From: Comamonas thiooxydans
Lineage (GTDB): Bacteria; Pseudomonadota; Gammaproteobacteria; Burkholderiales; Burkholderiaceae_C
Direction: 5' to 3'
DNA length: 64,000 nucleotides
Assembly: GCF_002157685.2 (NCBI RefSeq)
Contig: NZ_AP026738.1
Location: 2,170,001 to 2,234,000, forward strand
Shown: positions 9,291 to 30,029 of the stretch, one piece after another
How positions within the stretch are numbered: the first letter of the stretch is position 1
How the letters are laid out: each line of letters opens with the position of its first letter
Made by a program: the position numbers and the translations under genes
The notes under the pieces: generated by a model
The model's database searches: none
Told to the model about the DNA's origin: nothing
What the model saw: only the letters and a program-made list of their open reading frames with translations

Positions 9291-9306
9291 AGTAAAACGC
9301 TTTAGA
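9291..9306. promoter_or_regulatory. Late-box palindrome, copy 1 (imperfect)
   Basis: AGTAAAACGCTTTAGA matches AGTAAAGCGCTTTACT at 13 of 16 positions. On the minus strand the sequence TACTTAT follows the palindrome, and 27 bases separate the palindrome from the first ATG of the tape measure gene. The same arrangement with the same 27-base spacing precedes the protease gene. Probably the site of a late-gene regulator; the Mor/C-like protein is the best candidate. Confidence 0.65.
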
Positions 9307-9316
9307 GTTTGCCCAT

Positions 9317-9340
9317 AAAAAAAGGGCTCAGATTGAGCCC
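9317..9340 (-). terminator. Rho-independent terminator after tail chaperone genes
   Basis: On the minus strand GGGCTCA-ATC-TGAGCCC is followed by TTTTTTT. It separates the capsid/tube/fibre block from the tape measure block, and the stop codon of the frameshifted chaperone (9328-9330) lies inside the stem. Confidence 0.85.
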
Positions 9341-9884
9341 CCTGCAAGTGCGACGGCCGTGTGGGCCGCCTGGTGTTGTGCGTGGCGTTCGGCCTGGTCG
9401 CCGATGGCCTGCAGATAGCCTTTCAGCTCGTCGATGCTGTAGCGCCGAAGCTGCTGTCGGTCGTGGCCTGCGGCGATGAGCTGCTGAGCAACGGCGAACC
9501 AATCGACATCAGCTTCGCCTGGATCACCTTGATCGCCTGCAGGCGCTGGGTAAAAAAACTGAGGTTTTCCTCCAGCACCACATAGACCGCTTCGAGCACC
9601 ATGGCTATCGGCATCGCACGCACGTCAGCCACCGACATGGTCTTGGCTTGGCCATCCTGCACAGGTGCCAGGCAAGCTACCAGCAGCTTCTCCAGCGCCA
9701 GGCGCAAGGTCGATTCGCCTTGCAGCACCTTGAGGCTGGCCAGATCGAACTGGCCACCCTGCATGCTGATCAGCCAGTCGCCGAACTCGAATGCTTCGGT
9801 GAATACCTCGAATGGAACCTGGCTGACCTCGAAGTCATGGCCGGCAATGGTTTTATGAATGGGTGTATTGAAGAGTTTGCTCAT
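9328..9884 (-). CDS. Frameshifted tail assembly chaperone (GT-like product)
   Basis: A -1 slip on the seven T of the minus strand (9552-9558, codons AGT TTT TTT) leaves the 153-residue frame and enters a second frame that stays open to TGA 9328-9330. The added part reads like a real helical protein (DWFAVAQQLIAAGHDRQQL, then RRYSIDELKGYLQAIGDQA). The long product would be about 185 residues. Lambda G/GT and most siphophage tail chaperones use the same device, placed as here just before the tape measure. In those phages the rare long product binds both the tape measure and the tube protein. Confidence 0.8.
9423..9884 (-). CDS. Tail assembly chaperone, unshifted product (G-like)
   Basis: This 153-residue protein starts MSKLFNTPIHKTIAG. 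The ATG at 9884 lies five bases after the tail fibre stop. The fold is predicted helical, with VPFEVFTEAFEFGDWL and LEKLLVACLAPVQDG. Size and place between tail genes and tape measure match lambda gpG-type chaperones, which coat the tape measure during assembly. The C-terminal Ser/Thr-rich tail (SPLLSSSSPQATTD..) is likely translated only because the ribosome has not shifted frame. Confidence 0.8.
   Translation of the reverse strand: MSKLFNTPIHKTIAGHDFEVSQVPFEVFTEAFEFGDWLISMQGGQFDLASLKVLQGESTLRLALEKLLVACLAPVQDGQAKTMSVADVRAMPIAMVLEAVYVVLEENLSFFTQRLQAIKVIQAKLMSIGSPLLSSSSPQATTDSSFGATASTS
9552..9558 (-). promoter_or_regulatory. Slippery heptamer TTTTTTT for programmed -1 frameshift
   Basis: On the minus strand, AGT TTT TTT ACC offers the X XXY YYZ-type heptamer T TTT TTT in the zero frame. 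The -1 frame from here has no stop until 9328. Confidence 0.75.
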
Positions 9885-9889
9885 TGTTC

Positions 9890-12800
9890 TTATCCGTTGA
9901 AGGACCAGCCCAGCGGCCGATGGAAAGCCACACACCAGTTTTGCAGCGGGTAAGGCTTGCCGACCAGTGCAGGAATATTGGCCGATGCATACATGCCGCG
10001 CTCAGGCTCGTACACGTAGTTATCGAGAGCGACCGTAGAGTCGCTGTCTCGCAAGCAGCCGTTGCCGTTATGGACAGTCTTGTCTGCATACCAAACAAAG
10101 GCATCCGCAGCCAGGTCACGCGCCAATGTGATCTTTATCGTTGCCGCGCCCACGATCTGCACGCTAGAGATGCCAGGCGTTCCAGAGCTGTCGGTGACCT
10201 TGAATCCCTTTGCTGCATAGTCGGTAGCAGCATTGACGACGTACGGCAGATCAAACTTCAGAGGTGGAACGGGGACGTGGAACTCGATGAGAATTTCACG
10301 GCCGCTGCCTGAGATCTTTGTTGGCATCAGGGGAAGCCAGCGCCGTCCCTGACGGACAACGCGGTCCCAGACTTTGCCGATCATGTGGCCGAACCAGCGA
10401 CTGCCATTGCTGTCGAGGTGTCCACCTTTGTCTGTGTACGGGTAGATCGGACCGACCATGGCCACGTCGGTGCGCTCCAGGGCTGTCTCCAGCTGGGCCA
10501 TACCGACATGCAGGCCGGGCGTACCCGCGCTGTCGATATCGCGGGTGTACGCCGCGCCCGTCTGATACATGAGAAACGCAGGTTTTGCAGACTGCCCTGT
10601 CGTGGCCATTGCATCAGCTTGCATATCGCTGATGAGCTGGGCAAGCAGGGTCTTGTACGTTGCTTTGTCCCAGCTGCCGCCGTTCGAGTAGTAGTTGTAC
10701 TCGCCTTGCATCCAGCAAATGCCATCGACAACGCAGGTATCTGCTGCGGCTGCCGCCTTGATCTTGGTGATGCCGTCGACAAAGCGTGCATAACGATTCA
10801 CAGCGTCTTGGCTGTTGACCTTGGACAGTTGCTCGATGGTGCGGCCCGACACCGAGGGGTTGAGAGTCACAAAGAGCCGGGTCTCATCATTGCTCACCAG
10901 CACAGCCTGGTTGTGTAGGTGCTTTGCAAAATTCAGCCAGGCGTGATTTGGCGGCTCGCCGAAAGCTGCAGCGCCAGGCGCCAGAGCGGCCTCCTGCTGA
11001 GGCGACAGCAGCGTGGAGCCATCTGCGCTTTGCGCGATCAATGGCTGGAGGGCTGCCGACCCAAATGTAGGGTAGGTATCACCATCGCTCGCCGCTGGCA
11101 GGACATTGCCGCCCAGTTGGAGGTTGCCATATCGGCCAGTGCGGGAAAGAGCTGGCCAGGTCTCTTGGCCCCGGCCCAAAGACTGACCGTATAGCACCTT
11201 GACGTTGTACTTTGCAGTGGGCCGCTGCAGATTGACCACGGGCTGTTGCTGTCGGATTGCGGACATGGCAACGGCTGTGGCATCGGCCGAGGTTCCGTCA
11301 TTGGGAGCCAAGGAAGGCATGCGGGGGTAATCGCTGCGGGCGATGTAAGCGCAATTGGAGCGAGCCACAGCAAACTGAAAGCCTGCAATAGTGGCCGTTT
11401 GTCCTGCGGCTGCGTCCGCTCCAATCAAGAAGCGAGAGGAACTTGCATCATCAGATAGCAAGAATGCGCCTTCATAGACCCGAAGCGTCGGGCTGATGGT
11501 ACTCACCAGCCGCAGCGTGACAGCTTGAATGTAGGTTGATGCGTTCCAAATATAGACCTGAGCTGAAACCCACGTCGATCCTTCAGGCCGCTCCACATAG
11601 ACACGGGCGAAGGCCATGGCGCCTGGCGCATAAAAAGGCAGGTTGCCACCAATGTACGGCCGCGTCCCTCCAACCCCTTTTTTGAACCCCTTCGAGATCA
11701 GATCAGGGTTCGTGAGTGTGACGATGCTTGTTTGGGCTGCTGTACCAAATTTCCACGGGATGTAGTCCGGGTCGTCTCCCATCGCATAGGGAAACATATT
11801 GGAAGCAGTGATGCGGCCGGTGTCTTCAATCACGCAACCGGCATGCGAAACAATGCTGTCACCCCATAGGCTCATCAAGGCAATAAATGGATAGCGACCA
11901 TTCGTCGCCTGGGGAGCGGTGGGGTACTTTGCGACCTTCAGCTCGCCACTAGCCAGGTCAATGTAGGCCGTTTCAATGCTATCGGGCGAGACCGTCATCG
12001 GCAGCTTCACATAGTTGGCTAGCTCAAGACTTTCCGGGTTTGAAACGTTGACGGTTGACGCATTTCGGGCATGGAAAGAACGGTAAAAAAACTGGCGAGG
12101 TGCATACAGAACCCCTCGTCCACCTCCCAAAGCGTTGATTCGGTCATAGATCAGCTTGAAGCGAGGCGAGAAACCGTCCAGATCTCCGTTCAGCGCACGG
12201 TCCATCCATAGCACTTCCTGCCCTGTAAAGGACTGGTACTGGCCCCACCAGCACACGCCCAAAGGCACGATGTTCTCGCTGCGTGGCGGCATGAATCCGC
12301 TCTCGGTGAACTTGAATAGCTCCTCATGGGTCGCCGCGATGCCGTACTGCGACATATCGATGTAGTGGTAAACAGCTTTAGAGCCGCTCACAGCCAACGA
12401 CATCGGTAACTCGAAAAATTCAGAAGCGCCAGCTGCCGGCGTCAATATGCGTGAGGTCTCTCCATTTCGGCATATCGCCAAAATTGGATACCGAACTACA
12501 GCGCGTTCCACATCAATGACCACACGTCCATTGCCCTGAAAGACAGTGAACTGTCTCGCCAGAGCCATAAGGCGGTCTACGTCTGCCCGCATTGCTGGCT
12601 GATACGCGTTGCGCGTCCACTGAGCGCCGGTCCATGTGTAATAGCCGTTGATGGGACTGGCTTCGGTGTGAGCTGGGTCATCGGTCACGATGCCCTGAGT
12701 ACCCGCTGGCTGCGTTGTGTCGGCCACCATGGCCGCGCGAGTGAGATAGGAGCGCTCCAGCTTGTTCGCAACGATCAGCCAGGCAGTGCCGATGTTGAGA

Positions 12801-13093
12801 TACAACGTGCGGGTGGCCATCTCCATGGCGATAAGGCCAACCAGAGCGGGATAGCGCTTCCAGACGCCACCATTGAAAACGGCATAAGAGCCATTGGTGA
12901 AGACCTGCCCAGATCCGGGTGCAGGGTTTGCGGGTAGCGCACTGGTCGACAAGATGGGCCCGGACAGTGTGCTCAGCGCCATGTGATCGTCGATGCGGCG
13001 CAGATTTTCTTCCATGCCGTTGGGGACGGCAAACGGATCTTCCGTTGTGCCGAAACTGGCCCAGATACCCCCTGCCAATTGTTCTTTTGCCAT
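9890..13093 (-). CDS. Tail fibre / receptor-binding protein with SGNH-esterase-like domain
   Basis: This 1067-residue protein has the start at 13093 (MAKEQLAGG) after GGAG. The N-terminal 150 residues resemble an attachment segment (FAVPNGMEENLRRIDDHMAL; FNGGVWKRYP); the centre is beta-rich. Around residue 635 GQSLGRGQ, near 794 CWMQGEYNYY, and near 890 GGHLDSNGSRWFGH follow the order of the Ser, WxQGE and Asp/His blocks of SGNH hydrolases of the sialate O-acetylesterase type. Such domains on phage fibres deacetylate capsule or O-antigen sugars. It lies between tube and chaperone genes, not at the end of the tail module, which suggests a separately acquired receptor-binding gene. Confidence 0.75.
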   Translation of the reverse strand: MAKEQLAGGIWASFGTTEDPFAVPNGMEENLRRIDDHMALSTLSGPILSTSALPANPAPGSGQVFTNGSYAVFNGGVWKRYPALVGLIAMEMATRTLYLNIGTAWLIVANKLERSYLTRAAMVADTTQPAGTQGIVTDDPAHTEASPINGYYTWTGAQWTRNAYQPAMRADVDRLMALARQFTVFQGNGRVVIDVERAVVRYPILAICRNGETSRILTPAAGASEFFELPMSLAVSGSKAVYHYIDMSQYGIAATHEELFKFTESGFMPPRSENIVPLGVCWWGQYQSFTGQEVLWMDRALNGDLDGFSPRFKLIYDRINALGGGRGVLYAPRQFFYRSFHARNASTVNVSNPESLELANYVKLPMTVSPDSIETAYIDLASGELKVAKYPTAPQATNGRYPFIALMSLWGDSIVSHAGCVIEDTGRITASNMFPYAMGDDPDYIPWKFGTAAQTSIVTLTNPDLISKGFKKGVGGTRPYIGGNLPFYAPGAMAFARVYVERPEGSTWVSAQVYIWNASTYIQAVTLRLVSTISPTLRVYEGAFLLSDDASSSRFLIGADAAAGQTATIAGFQFAVARSNCAYIARSDYPRMPSLAPNDGTSADATAVAMSAIRQQQPVVNLQRPTAKYNVKVLYGQSLGRGQETWPALSRTGRYGNLQLGGNVLPAASDGDTYPTFGSAALQPLIAQSADGSTLLSPQQEAALAPGAAAFGEPPNHAWLNFAKHLHNQAVLVSNDETRLFVTLNPSVSGRTIEQLSKVNSQDAVNRYARFVDGITKIKAAAAADTCVVDGICWMQGEYNYYSNGGSWDKATYKTLLAQLISDMQADAMATTGQSAKPAFLMYQTGAAYTRDIDSAGTPGLHVGMAQLETALERTDVAMVGPIYPYTDKGGHLDSNGSRWFGHMIGKVWDRVVRQGRRWLPLMPTKISGSGREILIEFHVPVPPLKFDLPYVVNAATDYAAKGFKVTDSSGTPGISSVQIVGAATIKITLARDLAADAFVWYADKTVHNGNGCLRDSDSTVALDNYVYEPERGMYASANIPALVGKPYPLQNWCVAFHRPLGWSFNG

Positions 13094-13103
13094 GTCTGGC
13101 TCC

Positions 13104-13877
13104 TTACTTCGTGGGATATGCGGCGCGGTCCAGGCTGTACCAAGCTGCCGGCCCATTGGTGCGGGGCACAGGGCGCAACTGCAGGTTCAACCTGATGCTG
13201 CTTGTGGACTGGTCCAACAGCGTCAGACCGCCATCCAGCAATGGCCTGCAGCGATAGCACTGCAGGCGTACGGGCTTGCCGTCGATGAGGTTGGTTCCGG
13301 CGTAGGCCAGGCCCAGTTCGATGTCGCCGCCTGTTGCTGCATCAAGCTGCTCCGACCTCCCCTCGGAGGTGCTAGTAATGCGCACGGTCGCGCCTGGTGG
13401 ACCAGCAATGCCTTGCAGCAGCTCAATGCCCCAGTCGGAGCGGCGCCACTCCACACCCTCGCTCCATGCAGCCCATGACGGCGCCACTTGCACGGCTTGC
13501 TCGCAGTCGACCTTGTGAGGCGTCCACAGCATTGCGCCTGCAGGAAGCAGCAGACCAGAGACATCGACTGTGGTGGTGATCCGGGTACTGGCCGTTGCCA
13601 GGCGCTGAGCGTTGAGGGCCATGGCCAGATTGGCCGCGCCATGGCCGTAGAGCTGGACAGACACGGACACGCCGTCAATCACGGCATTGCTACGTCCGTC
13701 CCAGGGGCTGGTACGAAGCCGGCGCACGTTGGGAGTCACGACCAGGCCGAAGGCATTGCCCAGGCGGCGGCCTGGTGGCAGTCCTGTAGCCCAGTCCCGC
13801 ATGGCCGGGCCGGCATACAACATGCCTCGGCCCAGGTAATGCGGGTTGTGCTCCTGCTCGTACTGACCCAGATACAT
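13104..13877 (-). CDS. Phage tail protein of unknown role
   Basis: This 257-residue protein lies between the tube gene and the fibre gene and is separated from each by about 10 bases. It begins with a Tyr/Gly-rich segment (HNPHYLGRGMLYAG) and is predicted beta-rich, ending WYSLDRAAYPTK. No catalytic motif is visible. By place it may be a second tube-like, decoration or fibre-anchoring protein. Its LGRG start loosely recalls the FKGRGE start of the neighbouring tube protein, so an old duplication is possible. Confidence 0.6.
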   Translation of the reverse strand: MYLGQYEQEHNPHYLGRGMLYAGPAMRDWATGLPPGRRLGNAFGLVVTPNVRRLRTSPWDGRSNAVIDGVSVSVQLYGHGAANLAMALNAQRLATASTRITTTVDVSGLLLPAGAMLWTPHKVDCEQAVQVAPSWAAWSEGVEWRRSDWGIELLQGIAGPPGATVRITSTSEGRSEQLDAATGGDIELGLAYAGTNLIDGKPVRLQCYRCRPLLDGGLTLLDQSTSSIRLNLQLRPVPRTNGPAAWYSLDRAAYPTK

Positions 13878-13889
13878 CGCTCGCGCCCG

Positions 13890-14693: not shown

Positions 14694-14709
14694 TTTTCTC
14701 TCCTAAAAA

Positions 14710-15659: not shown

Positions 15660-15679
15660 GCGATTGGCCTGCCGTCAGA

Positions 15680-16072: not shown

Positions 16073-16171
16073 GGTTTCGCTCCAGGTCGATGTGAAAGGG
16101 TTTCCTACTGGCCCAACCCGGCCAGGTGCTCATGACCTGGACCGGGGGCAGCTTCTCTCTCGGGGTGGTTG

Positions 16172-17709: not shown

Positions 17710-18228
17710 TCAGCCCTCGAACGACACAACCTTGCTCACCGCCTCGGCGTAGCTCACGTTGTGCTTGTTGGCGTAGGCCTTGGCGGCCTTGTCGATCTCG
17801 GAGTCGCTCTTGCCCTTGGCGCTGCCTTGCTCGCCTTCGGGCACTTGGCCACCGCCGTGCTCGCTGAAATCGACCGATGGCTTGCTGCCGGCGATCAGCT
17901 CCTGCAGCCAGGCAGAGGGGCTGACCTTGCGTTTGGTGTCGCCTTCGGAAAACTCCACCGGCTCGACCTCGGCCAGGCGGTCCAACGTGGCCACAGCCAT
18001 GTCTTTGTCCTTGGGCATCAAGCGGCCGGCTTTGACTTGGCTTTCCGCGAACGAGACGTTGGCGGTGTGGCGATCACGCTTTTGCTGCTCTGCAAACTGG
18101 GCCAGCTGGGCGCGCGCCTGGTCGCGTTCAGCGACAGCCGTGGCGGTCTTCTGCGCTTCCTCGGCAGCCTTGCGCTCGGCTTCTTCCTTGGCTTTGCGCT
18201 CGGCTTCGATTCGTTCGGCTTCGGTCAT
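17710..18228 (-). CDS. Nested scaffold protein (Mu gpZ-like, internal start)
   Basis: Inside the protease gene an in-frame ATG at 18228 (MTEAERIEAERKAKE) follows a good GGAG site eight bases upstream. The product would be 172 residues made of the coiled-coil scaffold part only. Mu makes its scaffold Z in exactly this way from an internal start in gene I. Confidence 0.65.
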   Translation of the reverse strand: MTEAERIEAERKAKEEAERKAAEEAQKTATAVAERDQARAQLAQFAEQQKRDRHTANVSFAESQVKAGRLMPKDKDMAVATLDRLAEVEPVEFSEGDTKRKVSPSAWLQELIAGSKPSVDFSEHGGGQVPEGEQGSAKGKSDSEIDKAAKAYANKHNVSYAEAVSKVVSFEG

Positions 18229-18741
18229 GGATGGGTGCTCCTGGTTGGGGGTGGGTTGCTCGGAAAAAAAGATGAGTCCGAATTCGGTGTCGTTTCCGCC
18301 TTCGGCGAATTTGGGATCACGCAGGCCTTTGACGGCTGGGGGCTGGGCGCCCAGGAAGCCAACGTGACGCAGGTAATAGACGCCGGGCTTTGGGTTGGCT
18401 GGGTCTTCGGGGTGGTAGAAGGCTGCGCTGCGCTTCTTGACGCGACCTGCGCCGTAGTACTCGGCGAACGAGGGGTCGATCTGCTGATGGCTGGACTTGA
18501 GCGTCCCGCCTTCGGCCGACAGCTTGGTGACCCAACCCCAGGCGGGGTGGTCGTCTTCGGGATGGCCAATGACCAGGGGCGCTTCGTGGACGGCGGGGTC
18601 GTAGGCAGCGGCCGTGGCCGTGACATCGGCCTCGGTGATCACATAGACCTGGCCGTTGGTGGCCGTGCGGGCCCCGGCTTGGAAGATCTCCAGGCCATCA
18701 GGAAATTGCGAGGGGGTGGTTTTGTTGCCCATGTCCCGCAT
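17710..18741 (-). CDS. Mu gpI-like prohead protease with scaffold domain
   Basis: This 343-residue protein has an N-terminal half (TATAAAYDPAVHEAPLVIGHPE..HPAWGWVTKL) that matches Mu I-type prohead proteases. Residues 172-235 are a long charged coiled coil (many Glu/Lys/Ala) that serves as scaffold; the C terminus is disordered. ATGs at 18741 and 18732 are possible. It heads the capsid/tail block, 27 bases after a perfect late-box palindrome, and precedes the capsid gene. In Mu the protein cleaves itself and the scaffold during head maturation. Confidence 0.85.
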   Translation of the reverse strand: MRDMGNKTTPSQFPDGLEIFQAGARTATNGQVYVITEADVTATAAAYDPAVHEAPLVIGHPEDDHPAWGWVTKLSAEGGTLKSSHQQIDPSFAEYYGAGRVKKRSAAFYHPEDPANPKPGVYYLRHVGFLGAQPPAVKGLRDPKFAEGGNDTEFGLIFFSEQPTPNQEHPSMTEAERIEAERKAKEEAERKAAEEAQKTATAVAERDQARAQLAQFAEQQKRDRHTANVSFAESQVKAGRLMPKDKDMAVATLDRLAEVEPVEFSEGDTKRKVSPSAWLQELIAGSKPSVDFSEHGGGQVPEGEQGSAKGKSDSEIDKAAKAYANKHNVSYAEAVSKVVSFEG

Positions 18742-18768
18742 GGTCTTGCGGACGGGGCTTGCGCTATA

Positions 18769-18784
18769 AGTAAAGCGCTTTACT
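18769..18784. promoter_or_regulatory. Late-box palindrome, copy 2 (perfect)
   Basis: AGTAAAGCGCTTTACT is a perfect 16 bp inverted repeat. It sits in the gap between the Mor/C-like gene and the protease gene, 27 bases before the first ATG at 18741, with TACTTATAG directly downstream on the minus strand. Probably the control site of the capsid/tail operon. Confidence 0.75.
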
Positions 18785-18843
18785 AAATTTCGCCAGGCAT
18801 TGCACCGGGCGATGGGCTAGCGCGTTGCGCGCCGCCCTTGGGG

Positions 18844-19272
18844 TCAGTCCAAACCGGGCAGTTGCTGCTGGCGGCTTAAAAACATCTCTCGCTGGTAGGT
18901 GTCCACGATCTGGCGAACACGCATTGGAGTGAGGTCGTACTCATCGGCCAGCTCGTCGTAGTTGCCTCGAAACTTTGCGCACATCTCTCGGTCGCGGGCG
19001 CTGAGCTGCATTGCCAGGCCGCGCGACAGGTAGATGGTACGGCCACCTTTTTCACGCGCCAAGTGCTGCAGTTGCACCACCGACATATTGGCAAAGGCCT
19101 GCAGCTTCTGCGTCCAGGCCTGGTCTGGCTTGGCCTGACCGACGCGCCCGTCCATCAGTGCGAGCGCCTCAAACAGACAGTGAGCAACATCGCGCATTTC
19201 GTCGGTCATACCAGGCGGCAGGACAGTGGTGAGCACAACGGCCTCGGCGGCGGTCAGAAAAGTGCGAGCCAT
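18844..19272 (-). CDS. Mor/C-family late transcription activator
   Basis: This 142-residue protein starts MARTFLTAAEAV at 19272 after AAAGGGA. GGRTIYLSRGLA near residue 85 and the helix-turn-helix segment ARDREMCAKFRGNYDELADEYDLTPMRVRQ are hallmarks of the Mu Mor/C family. These dimers bind imperfect dyads and recruit RNA polymerase to promoters that lack a good -35. It is the last early gene before the protease operon, whose upstream gap carries the palindrome AGTAAAGCGCTTTACT. It may serve both the middle and late role because no second family member is seen. Confidence 0.88.
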   Translation of the reverse strand: MARTFLTAAEAVVLTTVLPPGMTDEMRDVAHCLFEALALMDGRVGQAKPDQAWTQKLQAFANMSVVQLQHLAREKGGRTIYLSRGLAMQLSARDREMCAKFRGNYDELADEYDLTPMRVRQIVDTYQREMFLSRQQQLPGLD

Positions 19273-19274: not shown

Positions 19275-19697
19275 TTATTCCCTTTCTCCCCAGGATTTCA
19301 GACCTTCGATCAACGTGTCGAGCTGGGCGCCATTGGCAAAGCGCAGCGCTGCGGTACCTACCGTGCGCTGCACCCAGGCATTGAGCGATGCAGCGCTGTT
19401 GTCGCGCAGCTTCCCGTCGCGGTACAGCTGGTTCCACAGTGCCCAGACTTTGCGCTCCTTGGGACTGGCGGACTGCTTGGACTGTGCGAACGTGTTGCGG
19501 CGGCTGCGTGTGGGTTTGGCCAGACCGAGCTTGACCGCCAGCTGCTGCATGTGGTCACGCACAGCCTCCTGCTGAACAGGCGTCATGTCTTTGCTGCTGG
19601 ACTTGCCCGTCAGGTTCATCAGTAACGCGCGATAGTCGTCATCCGAGAGCTGCAGCTTGCTCTTGAGTGTGTGGATTGCGGCAATGTTGTTGGTCAT
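19275..19697 (-). CDS. GemA-like regulatory protein (Mu gp16, DUF1018)
   Basis: This 140-residue protein contains IHTLKSKLQLSDDDYRALL, the conserved start of GemA/gp16 proteins, and RKVWALWNQLYRDGKLRD near the C terminus. In Mu GemA modulates host gene expression after induction. It overlaps the preceding zinc-ribbon gene by 59 nt and ends three bases before the Mor/C-like start. Confidence 0.85.
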   Translation of the reverse strand: MTNNIAAIHTLKSKLQLSDDDYRALLMNLTGKSSSKDMTPVQQEAVRDHMQQLAVKLGLAKPTRSRRNTFAQSKQSASPKERKVWALWNQLYRDGKLRDNSAASLNAWVQRTVGTAALRFANGAQLDTLIEGLKSWGERE

Positions 19698-20023: not shown

Positions 20024-21010
20024 CTAAAACGGAGCGGCATCCGGTTCTGTATCTGCAGGAGCAGCGGCGGGGCCGGTTGTCGTCGCCTGTTTGGTCAGTG
20101 AGGCGGGCAGCTCGCCGAGGCCGGTGCGGCCTTCGCCGCCCAGGGCCTCGATCAGGTCCGGGAGCATGCGAGACAACTCGCCCGTGGAGATGGCCACATC
20201 GGTATCGAAGCCCCCGTCGTCTTGGGACTGTCCGTCCATAACCGCATCCAGCAGCGTGACGCCATGCAGCTGCAGGTTGTCGTTGAGCACAAAGCTCACG
20301 CGGTCGTCCCAGGTCATGGCCAACTTGGTCGGCAGCTTGCCGTGCTCGATGTGCTCGCGTACCTCGTCGATATCCAGGGGATGGCGTGCATAGCGCACCA
20401 CGGCCTTGGACTCGTCAGCAGCGACCAGCTCGCACTGGCGGTCAATCGAAAAGCCCGCAGGTGGTTCCTGCGTGACCAGCCAGTGGGCCATGGCTGCCTG
20501 TGGACTGGTTTGCGTGTCCACCAAGGCCAGCGCAAAGCCTGGCAGGCCCTCAACCAGGAGCGACACGACTTCATCGGCACGGCCTTGCGCGCTGGTATCG
20601 AGCAACAGCAAGCGGGCCTGGGGGTCGATCCAGACCCACATCGCGCCCTGTTTGGTGAATGCCATGGGCAGCAGATCCAGCTTGGCCTCGTCCTTGAGTT
20701 CGCGCTTTTCCTTCTTGCCGGGCTTGCGGCCCGCGGTCTTTTCGATGTGCTCGGCCTTCTCGTTGACCTTGCGGTTGAGCACGCTGGCGGGAATCAGCTT
20801 GGCTTCAGTCATGAAGCGCAGCATCCACTGACCAGCGACGGACTCGGCCAGTAGACCATGCTGCTCGCCCCGAGGTGGCACCCAGCCGACCGAGCGCTCC
20901 TGGGTTGCGCCACACTCGGCAAACGGGGTCTTTTGCAGAGCAGCCTCAAGCACCTGCAGATCGGGCACCCAGGTGGGGGAGATGCGGTAAGCGATGGCGT
21001 TTTTGATCAT
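20024..21010 (-). CDS. RdgC-like recombination-associated protein
   Basis: This 328-residue protein begins KNAIAYRISPTW, with FAECGATQERSVGWVPPRG around residues 30-50, LPMAFTKQGAMWVWIDP near 115-130 and ALVDTQTSPQAAMAHWL near 185-200, following host RdgC proteins throughout. RdgC forms a ring dimer on DNA and limits RecA loading. A phage copy in the early operon of a transposable phage may protect replication intermediates or regulate recombination. Its stop is just before the zinc-ribbon region and its start overlaps the DUF2528 gene end by four bases. Confidence 0.85.
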   Translation of the reverse strand: MIKNAIAYRISPTWVPDLQVLEAALQKTPFAECGATQERSVGWVPPRGEQHGLLAESVAGQWMLRFMTEAKLIPASVLNRKVNEKAEHIEKTAGRKPGKKEKRELKDEAKLDLLPMAFTKQGAMWVWIDPQARLLLLDTSAQGRADEVVSLLVEGLPGFALALVDTQTSPQAAMAHWLVTQEPPAGFSIDRQCELVAADESKAVVRYARHPLDIDEVREHIEHGKLPTKLAMTWDDRVSFVLNDNLQLHGVTLLDAVMDGQSQDDGGFDTDVAISTGELSRMLPDLIEALGGEGRTGLGELPASLTKQATTTGPAAAPADTEPDAAPF

Positions 21011-23405: not shown

Positions 23406-23417
23406 GTCGAACCTCCA

Positions 23418-24608
23418 TCACATTGCGGCAATGACGTCACGATTGACCACGGGGGCGCCGATCTCTGCAGCTGCGTTGAGTGCAGCCACCATCCAGTTGT
23501 TGACGTTGAGCGGGTACAGCAGGCTGACGTGGTCCTTGCCTGCGTTCACCGTGAGGCGGCTGCGCAGCTCGTCGACGCCATCCACGGTGATCAGCTCGTC
23601 CAGCTTGCGGTTGCAGGCCTCGGCGCGAACCTTGAGATAACCAGCCAGGTCGGAGCCCAGGGGGCGCAGGCGAACGATCTCGGTGCGCTGCATCACTTCG
23701 CGCACGTCGTGGCGATTGAGCTTGTCTTCCAGCTCGGGGTGGCCCATGAGCAGGATGCCCAGCATGGGGCGGCGGCCCAGGCGCATCTTTTCGTGCAGGC
23801 GCTTCAGATGGTTGAGCGTGGGGATGGGCAGCGCGTGGGCCTCCTCGATCACCAGCAGATGGCTGCGGCCCGAGGTGGTGGACTCTTCCAGCAATGACTG
23901 CACCTGGCGCGAGCGCTTTTCTTTGCCGCGCGCCACCGTGGCCTTGGCGTTCAGGGTGTAGATGATGGCGGCGTGGATATCCGCCGAGCGCATCGTCTCG
24001 CCCTTGTTGTCGGTGTCCTCCATACCCTCGACGCTGGGCTCGACGAGCACCACAGGCTTGTGCTGGCGGGTGATCTTTTCCTTCAGATCGCCCAGCAGCG
24101 TGGACTTGCCCGCGCCGGATTCGCCAATGACGGCCACCATGCGGCCGCCCAGCGCTGCCTGCCAAGCAGCCTCCTGCACAAAGCGAATCTCGCCGTTGAC
24201 GAACATTTCTTCGTCGCGGGTGACTTCGGAGGCAAAGGGGTCAGTGAACAGGCTAAAGGCCTTGCGGGCGTTTTCAGTCAGGGATTGCTTGGGTAGTAGC
24301 ATTACATCCTCCTCGGGGTTCTTGAGTGGTTTCGGTTCTTCGGGGACGGCCTCGGTCGCTCCAACGACCGGGGCCAACTTTTTGGACAAGGGCGGCAGCG
24401 CCGCCTCGGCCTGGTCTTGTGTGGCGCCACGCCTGACCAGGAATGCCCAAATACGGTTGCGCAGTGCGCGTGCGTCGAACTTGGGCCAGATGCCCTGGTT
24501 CACGATGCGATTCAGGCCGGCCGCGCTGATGCGGCACTCGCGGCTGATGGCCCGCTGGCTCAGACCCAGGGTCTGGGACAGCTCTGCAAAGATGGTTTGA
24601 GTGCTCAT
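23418..24608 (-). CDS. MuB-like AAA+ ATPase, transposition target protein
   Basis: This 396-residue protein has an N-terminal helix-turn-helix (GLSQRAISRECRISAAGLNR), then AAA+ motifs: Walker A GESGAGKST near residue 162 and Walker B LLVIEEAHALP near residue 253. MuB/TnsC-type ATPases polymerise on DNA, choose the target and stimulate the transposase. The start overlaps the transposase stop as ATGA. The family resembles the ExeA/BcepMu-type B proteins more than Mu B itself. Confidence 0.92.
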   Translation of the reverse strand: MSTQTIFAELSQTLGLSQRAISRECRISAAGLNRIVNQGIWPKFDARALRNRIWAFLVRRGATQDQAEAALPPLSKKLAPVVGATEAVPEEPKPLKNPEEDVMLLPKQSLTENARKAFSLFTDPFASEVTRDEEMFVNGEIRFVQEAAWQAALGGRMVAVIGESGAGKSTLLGDLKEKITRQHKPVVLVEPSVEGMEDTDNKGETMRSADIHAAIIYTLNAKATVARGKEKRSRQVQSLLEESTTSGRSHLLVIEEAHALPIPTLNHLKRLHEKMRLGRRPMLGILLMGHPELEDKLNRHDVREVMQRTEIVRLRPLGSDLAGYLKVRAEACNRKLDELITVDGVDELRSRLTVNAGKDHVSLLYPLNVNNWMVAALNAAAEIGAPVVNRDVIAAM

Positions 24609-26410
24609 CGGGTGCCTCCCACAGCACGCAGGCCGGTGGTGCCTGGTGCGGTGTTCTGCTGATCGCGGCGGGCCGAGATCATCTGTTTGACAACGTCTTC
24701 GGGCACGCCTGCAGCGCCATAGCGCTCGGTGAGCCAGGCATAGGTGCCAGCGTCGTACAGCTCGCCCAAGGCCTGCTTGATGCGTTTGCAGGCCTCGGCC
24801 ACGGACAGGCGTGCGGCCTCCACGCTGGGCGCAGCAGCTTCATGGGCAGTGCCAGGGCGCTGCATGTAGGTGGGCAGGCTGGCTGCCTTGGCCTTGATAT
24901 CTGCCAGGGGGTCGAACTGGCCCAGATAGGGAGCAACCTTGTCGCGCTGGGCTGCTTCCACCTCGGCGGCTGTTGCGGCCTTGCCGTCCTTGGCGTAGGC
25001 CTGCGCATCGACCGCCTGGCGCAGCTGCTGCGCCGGGGTCGTAGGCATGGACTTGAACTCCTTGCCAGCCACGGGGGCCGATGCGTCATAGCCCATAAAG
25101 CCCTTGGCTGTGGGCTCCACCTGGTGCCAGACGATCTCGCCGGTTTCGCGGTCTGTCACACCCACGCGCACATTGGGTGCGTCAAAGGGGTTGACCGTCA
25201 CGAACACCTTGTCGCCTGCCGACAGGCCAGGCACATAGCGCAGGTCATAGTCCTGGCTGCCCTGGCCTTTGAGGGCGTATGTGACACGCATGTCACTGGT
25301 GACCGTGCGAGTCTTCGCCATGCTGGCGGGCAGCGCGCGCATGATCTCCATGGATGGAGCCAAGCGCAGATGCTGGGAGCCGATGGTGGCCCAGGCCGCA
25401 TACCGCGTCATACCGTGGCGGCTGTGCTTTCGCGTGCCGTTGTACGCATGCATCCACAGTTCGGCCAGGGCATTCAGCCGTGCCACGGTGATGCTTTCGG
25501 GGTCGAGGAAGCGCAGGCGGGATTCCAGGCCCCGTTCAACCAGGTTCTGCGCGTTCTCAACCAGACCCGTCGCCCGGCTGTTGCGAGGCTTGTGGTGCTG
25601 CAGGTCGATCTCCATGGCGCGGCAGAAGTTGGCGAACGGGCCTGACTTGAACGCGCTGCCCTGGTCGGTATAGAGCATGTAGGGCACGCCGTGGAAAGGC
25701 ATGGGCTGCCCTCCGACATCCTGGCGCTGTGTCATCAGCCACATCAGGAAGTCGAGCGCGTTCTCGGTGGTTTCGCCGCCCAGGTAAAAGCGCGTTCCAA
25801 TAGCGCCGCTCGCGTGCTCAGCGCCCACATAGCGCACCAGCAGGTCGTTCATGACCCGTGTGTAGTTGTGCAGCTTGTTCTTGTAGTGCACGCCGTCCTC
25901 TTCCAGCAGCACCAGCTCGCCCTTGGGCGTCTTGTAGAGCACGCACACCGAGGCGTCGATCTGCCACATCGCATTGATGTGCTCGGTGCGCATGCGGGTG
26001 GACGGCGCCGGGCGGCTGATCTGCTCGGGATGCATGCCGCGCTCACGCAGCAGACGGTTCACATGACTGGCGGTCAGGCGTGTGTCGAGTTTGCCCCCAT
26101 CGAACAGCATGTCGATGGCGTCCTGGCAGGACAGCATCCATTTGCCTGCGCGACGGTCATGCGTCATCGTGCCGCTGATGAGCAGCAGATCGGAGTCGCT
26201 GATCGCAGACTGGCCCGCATCGCTGCGGCGCTTGCGGCTCTCACTCAGGCCCAGATCGCGCGAGGCCTTGGAGATCAAGGTGGTAGTACGCTGCACCGAG
26301 AGGTTCAGCACATTGGCAGCTCGTTGCACGATGGGGCCGGTCTGGCCCCATGGAGCCTCGGCGCATTCGCGCGCTGCCTGGTTGATGACTTCCATGCGGA
26401 TGGCATCCAT
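24605..26410 (-). CDS. DDE transposase/integrase (MuA-like, BcepMu type)
   Basis: This 601-residue protein has an N-terminal helix-turn-helix region, then a DDE core: first Asp in MWQIDASV near residue 150, second in MLYTDQGSAF near 250, Glu in GLVENAQNLVERG near 286. A beta-barrel domain follows (DYDLRYVPGLSAGDKVFV), and the C-terminal helices likely contact the B ATPase. It catalyses strand transfer for integration and for replicative transposition in the lytic cycle. It should bind the GATAAA-containing ends. The order transposase then B with ATGA overlap is standard. Confidence 0.95.
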   Translation of the reverse strand: MDAIRMEVINQAARECAEAPWGQTGPIVQRAANVLNLSVQRTTTLISKASRDLGLSESRKRRSDAGQSAISDSDLLLISGTMTHDRRAGKWMLSCQDAIDMLFDGGKLDTRLTASHVNRLLRERGMHPEQISRPAPSTRMRTEHINAMWQIDASVCVLYKTPKGELVLLEEDGVHYKNKLHNYTRVMNDLLVRYVGAEHASGAIGTRFYLGGETTENALDFLMWLMTQRQDVGGQPMPFHGVPYMLYTDQGSAFKSGPFANFCRAMEIDLQHHKPRNSRATGLVENAQNLVERGLESRLRFLDPESITVARLNALAELWMHAYNGTRKHSRHGMTRYAAWATIGSQHLRLAPSMEIMRALPASMAKTRTVTSDMRVTYALKGQGSQDYDLRYVPGLSAGDKVFVTVNPFDAPNVRVGVTDRETGEIVWHQVEPTAKGFMGYDASAPVAGKEFKSMPTTPAQQLRQAVDAQAYAKDGKAATAAEVEAAQRDKVAPYLGQFDPLADIKAKAASLPTYMQRPGTAHEAAAPSVEAARLSVAEACKRIKQALGELYDAGTYAWLTERYGAAGVPEDVVKQMISARRDQQNTAPGTTGLRAVGGTR

Positions 26411-26419
26411 GGCGTGGCC

Positions 26420-27409
26420 TTATTGCTCTGCCGCGTCACGTTCGGCCTGGCGCTGTTCCATAGCGGCCAAGGCCTCGGGCGACATCCAGGACGGTTGCAG
26501 GCGCTCTTCCAAGTCAACCGAGATGTTGAACTCGGCAGCGATATCGACCAGTTGCTGGCAAAGGTATTCCACGCCCTGACGAGCGGCCAACTGGATGGCA
26601 TCGCGCTCGCTGCCAATGATTGCGGCATCTGCAGCCTTGAAGAGACGGCGCAAACCGTGCTGGGATGCAGCAGTGGCTTCTTGGATTTCATCCAGTAGCA
26701 GTTCTTCGTCAGCTGTGCGCGCCTCGCTGCCTGGGCGTGGCTTGAAAGCCCGGGCGGTCTTCTCTTCGAGGCTGGTGATGCGCTCGCTGTTGCTAGCCAG
26801 GACGCGGTCCTTGGCTTCGATGGTTTCCTGCTGCTCCTGCACCTGGGCGCTCAAGGCTTCTTTTTCCTTGGCATGCTTGGCGATGATTTCCTCGGCCAGC
26901 TCGACAAAGCTCTCCTTGTCGCCGGCCTGGGCCACTTCAATCAGGGCCAGCTTCTGGTCTTCGGGCAGCTTGCGGTACTGGCGCAGCTCGCGGTAGCCGA
27001 TGCCCATGCGCTGCATGGAATCCAGGGCTTCCTCGCCAAACGAATGCAAGTTGGCAATATCTTGGTTGGCCTTTTCGTCGGAGATGCCGAGTAGCCCGCA
27101 GAATTCGACCCAGGTGCCCTTCAACTCCAAACCGTTTGGAGCCACCATTCCGCTAAGTTGTTGATATAGCTTGTTCTCCTTCACATAGGCCAGCTTTGAG
27201 ACTCCAAACGTTTGGAGCAGGTTGCCTGCAGCTTGGAAGGCTTGGGCTTGACCCAAGAGCTGATTGAGCAGGTCCCGGCCCTGTCCGTAGTTCTTCTGCA
27301 GAGCGGCCATCTGGTCGGCCGCCGCCACCGCGCTGCTAATGGCTTCGTGATCGGCGTTTGCAGCCACGGGGGCTGCTGCTGCGAGGGTTTTGCGTCCTGC
27401 TTGTGTCAT
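26420..27409 (-). CDS. Early phage protein with long coiled coil
   Basis: This 329-residue protein has a start at 27409 that follows AAGGAG. The first 110 residues are helical, then KGTWVEFCGLLGISDEKANQDI resembles a small DNA-binding segment, and residues 175-230 form a coiled coil (KEKEALSAQVQEQQETIEAKDR). The C terminus is acidic. It lies just before the transposase, as do similar genes in BcepMu-like phages. A role in transposition or replication is likely but unproven. Confidence 0.65.
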   Translation of the reverse strand: MTQAGRKTLAAAAPVAANADHEAISSAVAAADQMAALQKNYGQGRDLLNQLLGQAQAFQAAGNLLQTFGVSKLAYVKENKLYQQLSGMVAPNGLELKGTWVEFCGLLGISDEKANQDIANLHSFGEEALDSMQRMGIGYRELRQYRKLPEDQKLALIEVAQAGDKESFVELAEEIIAKHAKEKEALSAQVQEQQETIEAKDRVLASNSERITSLEEKTARAFKPRPGSEARTADEELLLDEIQEATAASQHGLRRLFKAADAAIIGSERDAIQLAARQGVEYLCQQLVDIAAEFNISVDLEERLQPSWMSPEALAAMEQRQAERDAAEQ

Positions 27410-27435
27410 TTCGACTCCTTGAGATGGGTTTCGGG

Positions 27436-27744
27436 TCAGGTGCGGCTGAAGCGCTGCACGACGTCATTGATGTTTTGCTGGCCTGCCTGGATGCCTGCCG
27501 CGTGCTTTAGGGAGATCTGCACGACGTGGGGGCTCAGGCGCCAGCGTTCCTGGTCGGGTGTGCGCTCAGCCCAGCCTGCTGTGCGCAGGTTGTCTAGGTC
27601 TCGGGTGATCACCGTCCCCGAACAGTTCAGGGCGCGGGCGATTGCTGTAGGGGCTAGGCCTTGCAGTTCATGCCCAGCAAGCAGGTCAATGAGCTGCAGC
27701 AGGCGCTGCTGGGCAGCGTTTGTGTAATCAGTAGTTCGTGTCAT
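27436..27744 (-). CDS. Winged-helix DNA-binding protein (IclR-type HTH)
   Basis: This 102-residue protein has LLQLIDLLAGHELQGLAPTAIARALNCSGTVITRDLDNLRTAGWAER, a clear winged helix like the N terminus of IclR regulators, and no ligand domain. The ATG at 27744 is chosen over a GTG at 27750. Second gene of the early operon, so probably an early regulator in the role of Ner. Confidence 0.75.
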   Translation of the reverse strand: MTRTTDYTNAAQQRLLQLIDLLAGHELQGLAPTAIARALNCSGTVITRDLDNLRTAGWAERTPDQERWRLSPHVVQISLKHAAGIQAGQQNINDVVQRFSRT

Positions 27745-27771
27745 ATTCACGCGAAATAGTGTGAAAATGCG

Positions 27772-27975
27772 TTAATCGTTTACGGGCAGGCCCAGCTTGA
27801 TGCGGACCTCTCGGCCCTCACCGAAATTGCCGTGGCGCAGGCCTCGCACAACGTCAGAAACAGTGCGGTAGCTGAAACCATGCATGGAGGCGAAGGCCTT
27901 GAGCGTTAAGCCTTGCTCTGTACGCAGACGGTGTTTGATCTGGTTAGCGGTTGGTTGCGTGGTGGATTGAGTCAT
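27772..27975 (-). CDS. BcepMu gp16-family phage DNA-binding protein
   Basis: In this 67-residue protein LRTEQGLTLKAFASMHGFSYRTVSDVVRG is a helix-turn-helix of the BcepMu gp16 family, ending IKLGLPVND. It is the first gene of the leftward early operon, next to the repressor operator and divergent from the repressor. Probably a Ner-like switch protein. Confidence 0.8.
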   Translation of the reverse strand: MTQSTTQPTANQIKHRLRTEQGLTLKAFASMHGFSYRTVSDVVRGLRHGNFGEGREVRIKLGLPVND

Positions 27976-28033
27976 CAGCTCGTCCCTTTCTCATTTCGCA
28001 GTTATTCCGTGTGTGTCGCTGTTGATGTAGGTG

Positions 28034-28062
28034 ATTCTAGTGTCCATTTGGACACCCAGCAA
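28034..28062 (-). promoter_or_regulatory. Leftward early promoter
   Basis: On the minus strand TTGCTG (28062-28057) and TAGAAT (28039-28034) are separated by 17 bases, a good sigma-70 arrangement. The 16 bp operator palindrome fills the spacer. Transcription would start about 50 bases before the gp16-like gene. Confidence 0.7.
28040..28055. promoter_or_regulatory. Repressor operator palindrome
   Basis: GTGTCCATTTGGACAC has 7-base arms that match perfectly around a 2-base centre. A degenerate second copy (TATGGACATTGG, around 28078-28089) overlaps the repressor start codon. The placement suggests that the repressor blocks the early promoter at the first site and tunes its own synthesis at the second. 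Confidence 0.7.
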
Positions 28063-28078
28063 CAAGAAATGTGCTCAT

Positions 28079-28534
28079 ATGGACATTGGAAATAGATTGC
28101 GCGAAGAGCGGGAGCGCCTGGGGATGACCCAGGAGGTATTTGGTGGCGTTGGAGGCGTGCTCAAACGGGCACTGATTCGCTATGAAACAGGGGAGAGAGT
28201 CCCCGATGCGAGCTTCCTGGCTGGGGTAGCTTCAGCAGGTGCTGACGTCCTGTACATCGTCACGGGACAACGCACACCAAAGCCGCCAGAGCAGGACGAC
28301 ACACCAGACCCAGCAGAGCAAGTGCTCTTGAATAGCTATCGCAGCTGCACACCAGAAGCGCGCGTCAATCTCATCCAGACAGCTGCACTGCTATCTGCTG
28401 GCCTGGGCGCGAGCAAGCCAACGAAGGCCTCACACACAGCAAGCAATGTGCGTGTTGGCGATCAAACAAGCACACACGATGGATCGGTTCAAGTGGGCTA
28501 TGCAGGTGGCAATGTCCGCGTAAAAAAATCCTGA
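28079..28534 (+). CDS. Phage repressor, XRE-type HTH with short C-terminal motif
   Basis: This 151-residue protein starts at 28079 (MDIGNRLREERERLGMTQEVFGG). The HTH spans about residues 5-55 (RLGMTQEVFGG..RALIRYETGERVPD). A helical segment follows (EQVLLNSYRSCTPEARVNLIQTAALL), then a Gly/Val-rich end (SVQVGYAGGNVRVKKS) that also occurs in the next gene. It is divergent from the early operon and lies on top of the operators, so it should maintain lysogeny. No LexA-type peptidase domain is present, so induction would not be by self-cleavage. Confidence 0.85.
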   Translation: MDIGNRLREERERLGMTQEVFGGVGGVLKRALIRYETGERVPDASFLAGVASAGADVLYIVTGQRTPKPPEQDDTPDPAEQVLLNSYRSCTPEARVNLIQTAALLSAGLGASKPTKASHTASNVRVGDQTSTHDGSVQVGYAGGNVRVKKS

Positions 28535-28566
28535 ACGAAGCGCGATGAATTGAGGGGACAAGACAG

Positions 28567-29046
28567 ATGTGGAAGGTGATTTTGAGCCTGCTACGCCGTT
28601 GGGGGCTGGTAGGTCGTAAGCCTGACGTTGGGCAGACAACAATTTCGACCAATGACAGCGAATTGGGTCCAGAGGTACCAAATCAGTCCATAGACGCAGG
28701 ATCAGGGAACCTACAAGTAGGCATTGCGCATGGAGATGTGGTGAGCCATGTCAATCACCACACCCAGCACATCAGCCACATCACAATCATCCAGGCCCCT
28801 TCAGGCCCTCCGTCCCCCGTAGATCCAATCAAGCCAACATCGTCAGAGCAATCTGCTGTTCTGCGCCGGATGGATCAACTACGCAGCAGGATTACCGTGC
28901 TCAATTTCATGGAGCGAGAGTTCGGTACAAGAATGGTGATTCACCTTAGGCCGGACCAACTCAATCGAGTTCATCTCTACCTGGATGCCGTCATGCGCAA
29001 TCCAGAGGCAATCAAGAGCGAGCGTCAAACTAAGAAGCGGGCCTAA
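28567..29046 (+). CDS. Repressor-linked protein with shared VQVG-type motif
   Basis: In this 159-residue protein GNLQVGIAHGDVVSHVNHHTQ near residues 47-67 repeats the repressor's VQVGYAGGNV pattern. The C terminus (LRRMDQLRSRITVLNFMEREFGTRMVIHL..QLNRVHLYLDAVM) is helical and resembles C-terminal modules of some phage regulators. It lies 32 bases after the repressor in the same direction. A role in modulating the repressor (partner or anti-repressor) is plausible; nothing enzymatic is seen. Confidence 0.55.
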   Translation: MWKVILSLLRRWGLVGRKPDVGQTTISTNDSELGPEVPNQSIDAGSGNLQVGIAHGDVVSHVNHHTQHISHITIIQAPSGPPSPVDPIKPTSSEQSAVLRRMDQLRSRITVLNFMEREFGTRMVIHLRPDQLNRVHLYLDAVMRNPEAIKSERQTKKRA

Positions 29047-29062
29047 AGGGAGCGGGGAAACA

Positions 29063-29449
29063 ATGACAATTAATTCGATGCAGTCTGCTATTTCTGCTGT
29101 GTTTGCAGCTGTTGCCTTAACTGCTTGCGGGTCTTCCGATGAAAATTTCATCTGGACAGCTGAAAAGAACATCGCACGAAAACTGAAAGACCCAGATTCC
29201 GCAAAGTTCGGGAAGACTTTTATTGTGCGTAAGCCTGCCGATTCCAGTGGCATTTCTGAGGTCGCCGCGTGCGGAACTATCGACGGAAAAAATAGCTTTG
29301 GGGCCTATACAGGCGGCACTCGCTTTGTAGTCAGAGGGCTGCAAGGTAATGGCCTACTCGACATCTCCATCATGGAATTGGATGACCCCACAGAAAGCAA
29401 ACCTACGACTTTTGAGAAGGTCTATTGGAATGCCTATTGCTTGAAGTAG
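29063..29449 (+). CDS. Prophage-encoded lipoprotein (lysogenic conversion candidate)
   Basis: This 128-residue protein starts at 29063 after AGCGGGGAAAC. A signal sequence ends in the lipobox LTAC (SAVFAAVALTACGSS), so it should be a lipoprotein. The mature part has FIWTAEKNIARKLKDPDSAKFGKTF, a pattern common in small secreted proteins of Gram-negative bacteria. It lies downstream of the repressor and is AT-richer than the phage average, which suggests a late-acquired gene active in the lysogen. Superinfection exclusion is one possibility. Confidence 0.65.
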   Translation: MTINSMQSAISAVFAAVALTACGSSDENFIWTAEKNIARKLKDPDSAKFGKTFIVRKPADSSGISEVAACGTIDGKNSFGAYTGGTRFVVRGLQGNGLLDISIMELDDPTESKPTTFEKVYWNAYCLK

Positions 29450-29487
29450 TCGCAAGCCCATATGGATTTATTAGGGAGACAAACTGC

Positions 29488-30018
29488 ATGAGTGATGTTG
29501 TCTGGGTTGCGCTTATCAGTGCTGGCGGCGTGATTGTGGCTTCTCTTATGACACAGCTATTGGTGATGAGAAACGCTGCAAAGCAGGCTGAGCGTGCAAT
29601 GCAGCAGGAGGCACTGCAATGGCAGCGAAATGAGGCCATCAGATTGCAGAAGGAGGCCGAGAAAAACCTCCAGGATTTCTGGCGAGCGATTGTTGAAACT
29701 CAAGATCGCCTACTGGACGGCATAAATTCCAAGCCCAACTTTGACAAGTTTTCTGAGGGGTCAATATCGACTGCTGCGACGCGGGCATATGCAATTGCAC
29801 TCGTGCTGATTCCGAACTTGCGAGAACTCTCCCACGATTACTGCGTGGCCTGCGCAACCGTCGACAACGCAATTCATGATGACCAGAAGCACGCCAGCGA
29901 GAAAGTGGTACTTGAGTGGCGACGAGCCTATGACCTGGTGGAAGCAGCCGTGATCCAGGAGGCAGCTCATATCGCTCGAAAAAGTACTGAGGAATCAGCT
30001 CCAACTCTCAATAAGTAA
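29488..30018 (+). CDS. Membrane-anchored coiled-coil protein, accessory phage gene
   Basis: In this 176-residue protein VVWVALISAGGVIVASLMTQLLV at residues 4-26 is one membrane helix; the cytoplasmic part is helical with a coiled coil (MRNAAKQAERAMQQEALQWQ). Start at 29488 follows AGGGAGAC. The stop codon falls inside late-box copy 3. The gene ends the plus-strand lysogeny cluster and may be an exclusion factor. It is not an obvious holin (one helix, long soluble domain). Confidence 0.6.
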   Translation: MSDVVWVALISAGGVIVASLMTQLLVMRNAAKQAERAMQQEALQWQRNEAIRLQKEAEKNLQDFWRAIVETQDRLLDGINSKPNFDKFSEGSISTAATRAYAIALVLIPNLRELSHDYCVACATVDNAIHDDQKHASEKVVLEWRRAYDLVEAAVIQEAAHIARKSTEESAPTLNK

Positions 30019-30029
30019 AGCGCTTTACT
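30014..30029. promoter_or_regulatory. Late-box palindrome, copy 3 (perfect)
   Basis: AGTAAAGCGCTTTACT, identical to copy 2, lies between the lysogeny cluster and the lysis/packaging operon, 88 bases before the endolysin start. The flanking AATA on its left equals that of copy 1, so on flank sequence alone the best -10-like stretch points left; rightward use toward the endolysin is inferred from gene order. Confidence 0.7.

Follow-up and report, generated by a model that had tools for sequence, protein, structure and literature searches.

The question raised by this locus is what a 16-bp palindrome does at the start of three late gene blocks in a prophage of Comamonas thiooxydans. The prophage lies in the window analysed here, by which we mean the entire stretch of 64,000 nucleotides (NZ_AP026738.1, positions 2,170,001 to 2,234,000), and PHROG and Pfam matches identify it as a B3/Mu-like transposable element. 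The first-pass annotation, made from the DNA letters alone, had proposed that the palindrome is the late-regulon code of this phage, read by its Mor/C-family activator. That proposal is right in substance and is supported by the block starts of related phages, by the geometry of known Mor sites and by boxes that vary symmetrically with Mor. Overall, the palindrome is very probably the binding site of a Mor-family activator within each late promoter, and the phage's own Mor-family protein (PF08765) is the likely binder. To this the present analysis adds a full promoter code, a probable leaderless start and an inverted repeat embedded in the promoter.

The boxes and the genes to which they relate are as follows.

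9291..9306, minus strand: putative Mor box copy 1, TCTAAAGCGTTTTACT, three mismatches, preceding the tape-measure gene
18769..18784, minus strand: putative Mor box copy 2, AGTAAAGCGCTTTACT, perfect, between the Mor gene and the protease gene
30014..30029, plus strand: putative Mor box copy 3, AGTAAAGCGCTTTACT, perfect, rightward into the lysis and packaging genes
18844-19272, minus strand: Mor/C-family activator gene (PF08765, phrog_532), likely reader of the boxes
17710..18732 (from 18741 in the open reading frame, or ORF, list), minus strand: head maturation protease gene (phrog_976)
5979..9254 (from 9263 in the ORF list), minus strand: tail tape-measure gene (phrog_24)
30118..30660, plus strand: endolysin gene (phrog_7), first full gene of the lysis/packaging block

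Three sites with at most three mismatches occur in the 64 kb, against an expectation of 0.10 (100 shuffles, none of which reached three). Copies 2 and 3 read AGTAA-AGCGCT-TTACT, that is, 5-bp arms around a G/C-rich spacer of 6 nt, and copy 1 pairs at four of the five arm positions. The positions first proposed for the three copies, including a 13/16 match for the first, were reproduced, and PHROGs matches bear out the identities then given to the tape-measure, protease and lysis blocks that follow them. Also as described, copies 1 and 2 stand 27 bases from ATG CGG NNN ATG; copy 3 lies 36 bases from an ATG at 30066, the same distance that separates copies 1 and 2 from their second ATG (9254 and 18732). 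The rarity of the motif held within the window but not beyond it: across the full 5.9 Mb genome, AGTAAANCGNTTTACT with at most two mismatches occurs at five places (the three window copies and two elsewhere), compared with eight for the backwards control. The motif alone is thus not rare genome-wide at two mismatches, context must carry copy 1, and the palindrome by itself was rejected as a genome-wide signal for want of specificity.

That context is a fixed spacing to a second element. From 63 phage loci we assembled 67 palindromes of the form TAAANCGNTTTA, 42 of them with differing flanks. Orientation was assigned by hand from neighbouring genes to 40; the other two (L012:1119 and L086:9609) were dropped and are absent from the counts, and 29 sites are non-redundant downstream. 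The pattern nAnnnT lies exactly 24-29 bases past the palindrome (A25, T29) in 26 of these 29 sites and on the opposite strand in 4. In 16 other registers (-8 to +8), only zero or one site each fits the same test, and under stricter redundancy limits the pattern persists in 19/22, 15/18 (60%) and 14/17 sites. All three window copies have T at 29 and ATG at 37, with -10-like hexamers assigned by spacing at the positions below; the last line gives an AT-rich stretch on the other side of copy 2, assigned by AT content and by analogy to the UP subsite of the Mu promoter Pm (PMC4390567, in the part drawn on here).

9262..9267, minus strand: GACCAT, copy 1
18740..18745, minus strand: GACCAT, copy 2
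30053..30058, plus strand: CATTCT, copy 3
18785..18790, minus strand: AAATTT, UP-element-like, at -57 to -52

The first-pass annotation had stressed a TACTTAT flank shared by copies 1 and 2, which did not survive as a common promoter element, because TAT follows the palindrome in just 3 of the 29 non-redundant sites (the first T in 21) and, in copy 3, TACTTAT flanks the box on the side opposite the lysis genes. As a candidate -10 adjoining the palindrome it was likewise rejected, the -10-like element lying 24-29 bases downstream.

The spacing mirrors a characterized system. In Mu, as described in the parts of PMC4390567 and PMC4287176 drawn on here, a Mor dimer binds a 16-bp element composed of two 5-bp inverted repeats and a G/C-rich hexanucleotide; at Pm this dyad spans -51 to -36 with its centre at -43.5, and the promoter has a -10 but no -35 element. 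The first of these sources places a UP subsite of Pm at -57 to -52. If nAnnnT is the -10 element, with its last T at -7 (-12 to -7), the palindrome falls at -51 to -36 and its centre at -43.5, so that a 16-bp dyad in the Mor position is found in the 26 of 29 sites that are in register. AT content reaches 0.83-0.97 at -55 to -52, compared with 0.45 at -57, 0.28 at -56 and 14-48% further upstream to -75.

The single Mor/C-family activator named at the outset is indeed the product of 18844-19272, as judged from PF08765, phrog_532 and profile matches to Mu Mor and Mu C. PF08765 matches with E 3.8e-13 and 49.8 bits against a curated cut-off of 24.9, and the family profile matches Mu Mor (1rr7, E 3.5e-6) and Mu C (9l0x, 9e-5) as well as 9vw8 (1.3e-4). 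Foldseek with the predicted Mor structure (predicted template-modelling score, pTM, 0.54) placed Mu C 9l0x at ranks 1-4 and 1rr7 seventh, in matches that are weak (best E 0.024, TM below 0.4). Two further weak Mor-family matches occur in the host genome, at G000:C1:3636816 and G000:C1:3309422, perhaps in other prophages.

A scan of related phages, the check that the first-pass annotation had itself suggested, found the motif at their late block starts. The exact 16-mer occurs in 15 stretches of a viral contig scan, and wherever neighbours are visible it lies between the Mor and protease genes or upstream of the lysis genes; at block starts the motif is kept though its flanks diverge. An alignment search with Mor gave 27 loci (5 genome and 22 viral); the distinct Mor fragments number 22, and some loci share a contig. 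Within 220 bases past the Mor stop codon, 24 of the 27 have the 16-mer if up to four mismatches are allowed, versus 1 of 210 control windows; if up to five are allowed, the same test gives 26 of 27 versus 10 of 210. In the 27th locus, L032, the box is ~520 bases downstream of Mor, yet still ahead of the protease gene. The tape-measure copy is also present in L023, L027, L028, L029 and L030.

Phages with more diverged Mor proteins carry altered boxes. In G066 (Mor identity 43% across the matched part) the protease gene is preceded by ACTAAAACATTTTAGT, and in G385 (41%) TCAAGCGCTTGA occupies the equivalent position, with GACATT and ATG after it, a site recognised by eye that the dyad script did not flag. 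The B3 genome carries TTTCGN6CGAAA three times, once each at the holin, protease and tape-measure blocks, and always with nAnnnT 23-28 bases beyond. Both halves of the box thus change symmetrically in phages with diverged Mor, as a dimer site predicts.

The composite pattern TAAANCGNTTTAN26ANNNTN5-7ATG was then sought in 399 genomes of the family. It occurs at 28 places in 13 of the 399, all three window sites among them, versus two for the reversed pattern. Of the ten genomes that have strong Mor matches, nine account for 22 of the 28 places and the tenth (G280) has a degenerate box. In G135 three places stand ~10 kb apart in a prophage that shows matches for TerS, TerL, portal, F and repressor; the one place in G223 precedes lysis genes, a Mor of 30% identity lying ~15 kb away; and G200 has one between repressor-side genes, beside transposase genes. 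The proteins of the window prophage have no match at the place in G218. A narrower pattern, searched in 399 genomes of the order, returned only two window sites and is uninformative, being so strict that it fits copies 1 and 2 only.

A start codon completes the code. An ATG begins 35-37 bases past the palindrome in 28 of the 29 sites (37 in 15, 36 in 11 and 35 in 2), and the base before it is a pyrimidine in all 28 (C in 26, T in 2). If the Mor geometry is right, transcription would start at the A of this ATG or one base before it. Predicted Shine-Dalgarno (SD) pairing has a median of about -2.2 kcal/mol at the 28 sites, versus about -5.6 for 29 other genes of the window with mechanically chosen starts; this weak pairing and the preceding pyrimidine are consistent with a leaderless start. 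Binding, start point and leaderless translation are, taken together, probable. The protease and tape-measure genes would open with the predicted leaderless ATG, as would, in L075, the endolysin gene itself. In the window this ATG opens the following frames.

9252..9254, minus strand: tape-measure start codon, where transcription is predicted to begin, 9 bases downstream of the ORF-list start (9263)
18730..18732, minus strand: protease start codon, where transcription is predicted to begin, 9 bases downstream of the ORF-list start (18741)
30066..30128, plus strand: 20-codon leader ORF MKSPTPHTTVPLAQGGLYGT, beginning at the predicted transcription start and ending inside the endolysin start

The 20-codon ORF has identical length and stop in all six lysis loci examined (the window, L005, L006, L013, L017 and L021). 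Protease starts in the ORF lists and in the B3 annotation are placed upstream of the predicted leaderless ATG. No report of leaderless late mRNA in Mu-like phages was found in the part of the literature that was covered. As a separate observation, four lysis-side palindromes (L079:3988, L081:12389, L083:2215 and L126:7628) have nAnnnT at 24-29 on both strands, and in L079, L081 and L083 an ATG at 36 or 37 on the far strand also opens an ORF (12, 79 and 76 codons), which might mean that one box fires both ways.

A GC-rich inverted repeat encloses the -10-like element and closes at the ATG or close to it. In the window, the repeats occupy these positions.

9256..9280 (arms 9275-9280 and 9256-9261), minus strand: GGCCGT...GCGGCC, copy 1
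18733..18753, minus strand: GTCCGC...GCGGGAC, imperfect, copy 2
30047..30065, plus strand: GCGCGGCA-ttc-TGCCGTGC, copy 3, overlapping the -10-like element

The copy-1 repeat of L030 shows a compensatory change (GGCTGT...GCAGCC), and the copy-3 repeat is fully paired in L013 and L021. The mean stem is 5.21; exchanging arm partners between sites lowered it to 4.18, and the real value was reached in none of 3000 such re-pairings. Re-pairing within class also gave 0 of 3000 and, at 60% redundancy within class, 0 (Watson-Crick pairs) or 2 (with G-U) of 3000. The arms thus covary and lie upstream of the predicted start, which would put the structure at the start codon beyond the reach of late transcripts: an RNA begun at the late promoter would lack the repeat because both arms precede its first base.

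These elements suggest a mechanism. Mor, made late in the early operon, would bind the boxes and start the three late blocks. As a dimer on the box (-51 to -36) it would replace a -35 element and, helped by the AT-rich stretch just upstream, bring host RNA polymerase to the weak -10 (nAnnnT). In this way one activator would switch on both the head and tail blocks and, in the opposite direction, the lysis/packaging block. With the -10 inside the GC-rich inverted repeat and the right arm at or near the ATG, the resulting mRNA would be leaderless and free of the hairpin. Read-through RNA from the early or repressor operons would, in turn, fold the hairpin against a start codon that has no good ribosome site, and would be poorly translated. 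We tentatively propose that transposable phages with a single Mor make leaderless late mRNAs from promoters buried in self-complementary stretches, a double lock in which Mor starts the RNA and read-through from the repressor or transposase operons folds the start codon away, and that the single palindromes of some relatives (L079, L081, L083 and L126) may fire both ways. The gating role of the repeat, taken by itself, is conceivable but slightly more doubtful.

Several observations weigh against the Mor-promoter mechanism as a whole. The -10-like hexamer is poor compared with TATAAT, being constant only at A2 and T6 in a GC-rich region, and A25/T29 is missed by L024 and L045, where the element is 1 and 2 bases closer, and by L090. 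L010 has no ATG at 35-37. Two palindromes (L012:1119 and L086:9609) were dropped from the counts for standing at no recognised late-gene start, and no Mor gene was found in the 34 kb examined around the three boxes of G135. An SD-like stretch (-7.4) lies at some distance from the tape-measure ATG. Folded singly, the hairpins are unremarkable and exceed shuffled sequences only modestly (mean z -1.30 versus -0.52 in a control window). Finally, the endolysin of the window is served by a strong SD of its own (-11.0) and would not be silenced by the hairpin alone, which weakens the gating step in the window.

The covariation of the arms and their position upstream of the predicted start, which would keep them out of late RNA, speak for a repeat that acts as DNA, through easier melting or as a second protein site, and not in read-through RNA. 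We regard this as rather unlikely: the arm sequences differ from site to site, which argues against a sequence-specific protein, and similar repeats precede protease genes whose messages are leadered. It is improbable that the box is a Mor-dependent promoter element whose transcript starts further upstream, leaving the hairpin within an ordinary 5′ leader. YPCBV-1 and Mu PI do have hairpins just before the protease start together with a leader and SD, and the B3 tape-measure and holin promoters have leaders. A start further upstream here would, however, break the -43.5 geometry and set the hairpin against an ATG with weak SD pairing (medians of about -2.2 versus about -5.6), and the interval between box and -10 is poor in AT (mean 0.37 over bases 1-6 and 0.23 over bases 7-23), with no other conserved hexamer.

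The first-pass annotation had offered a repressor site as its alternative, and a perfect palindrome together with a helix-turn-helix (HTH) repressor gene at 28031-28534 gives some ground for an operator that silences the late genes under this or another repressor. We set it aside as a very improbable main reading. No copy lies in the stretch between the repressor and early genes (27751-28030), the usual place of action of a phage repressor, or otherwise near the repressor and early promoters; the box stays while the repressors of relatives diverge to about 36-58% identity; and it sits at an activator position, not over the -10. That the palindrome is a chance or host-type sequence with no phage function can practically be dismissed, even though AAAGCGCTTT presumably resembles LacI-family or cre-like operators and L015 and L016 match no protein of the window prophage, since the other 13 of the 15 exact-16-mer stretches do match them, the spacing is fixed, the motif co-occurs with Mor, and the spacing counts and composite-pattern search already contradict it.

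The wider gene order completes the locus. Early genes run leftward and are followed, leftward too, by protease, head, fibre and tape-measure genes; rightward lie the repressor, endolysin, TerS, TerL, portal and F-like genes.

24605-26410, minus strand: transposase A, early operon
23418-24608, minus strand: AAA protein B, early operon
20024-21010, minus strand: RdgC-like exonuclease gene, early operon
19275-19697, minus strand: GemA, early operon
28031-28534, plus strand: HTH repressor (PHROG/Pfam matches)
from 31871, plus strand: TerS (PHROGs)
from 32431, plus strand: TerL (PHROGs)
from 33941, plus strand: portal (PHROGs)

The RdgC-like exonuclease (20024-21010) is 65% identical to one in Acidovorax phage ACP17. 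In two relatives, fragments 36-38% identical to the F-like head protein lie beside the lysis block, far from the head genes (L005:2225-2416 and L017:4240-4497).

The analysis yields a concrete, searchable promoter code (box, 23 bases, nAnnnT, ATG), with which further prophages were found and start codons misplaced by ORF callers would be corrected. The Mor-subfamily boxes TAAANCGNTTTA, TAAACATTTTA-type, TCAAGCGCTTGA and TTTCGN6CGAAA would form a natural specificity set for the Mor/C family. Whether leaderless late messages and hairpins within promoters silence the capsid and lysis genes of a lysogen becomes testable.

Known systems offer partial parallels. In T4, according to the parts of PMC3014915 and PMC2988022 drawn on here, long early transcripts of gene e form a structure that lowers lysozyme synthesis ~100-fold, whereas late transcripts lack the 5′ portion. 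T4 gene e, soc and I-TevI resemble the proposed arrangement in that late RNA lacks the 5′ arm and read-through RNA would fold the hairpin (same sources). In contrast to the window, T4 hides a ribosome-binding site, its late RNA retains a leader, and its activator and polymerase differ; in the window both arms lie upstream of the predicted start, leaving no leader and no clear SD to hide.

B3 has exactly three dyads, at its holin, protease and tape-measure blocks. In B3 and Rashabar the protease ATG directly follows GCCGCC..GGCGGC, and in D3112 the protease and lysis blocks share an upstream stretch ending in GGCGGC ATG; all three phages have the same hairpin-plus-ATG at the protease start as the window type. 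Their boxes differ from those of the window, the B3 spacing is one base shorter, and the B3 tape-measure and holin promoters are leadered. The common stretch in D3112, at L093:10749 (lysis) and L093:19793 (protease), reads GTTGAACCCCTTCC..TAA and ends in GGCGGCATG, with annotated starts downstream at 11041 and 19918; as a candidate box it was rejected, because it does not form a 5-6-5 dyad. A hairpin also precedes the protease start in Mu PI (L049) and in KP12, YPCBV-1 and PhiKM (L127, L128 and L131), with the predicted RNA start, read by eye only, inside it and, in YPCBV-1, the SD within its right arm.

A further parallel is found in the Mu promoters, namely Pm and the C-dependent late promoters Plys, PI, PP and Pmom. 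Pm resembles the window promoters in its 16-bp dyad with a G/C-rich centre at -51 to -36, its lack of a -35 element and its AT-rich UP stretch, and Mu C at Plys, PI and PP controls the lysis, protease and tail blocks as a single activator, as proposed here (both in the parts of PMC4390567 and PMC4287176 noted above). Unlike Mu, the window prophage has a different box sequence, a start codon at a predicted +1/+2 and late blocks on both strands, and the one Mor-family protein found in it appears to run those blocks without a separate Mor-then-C step.

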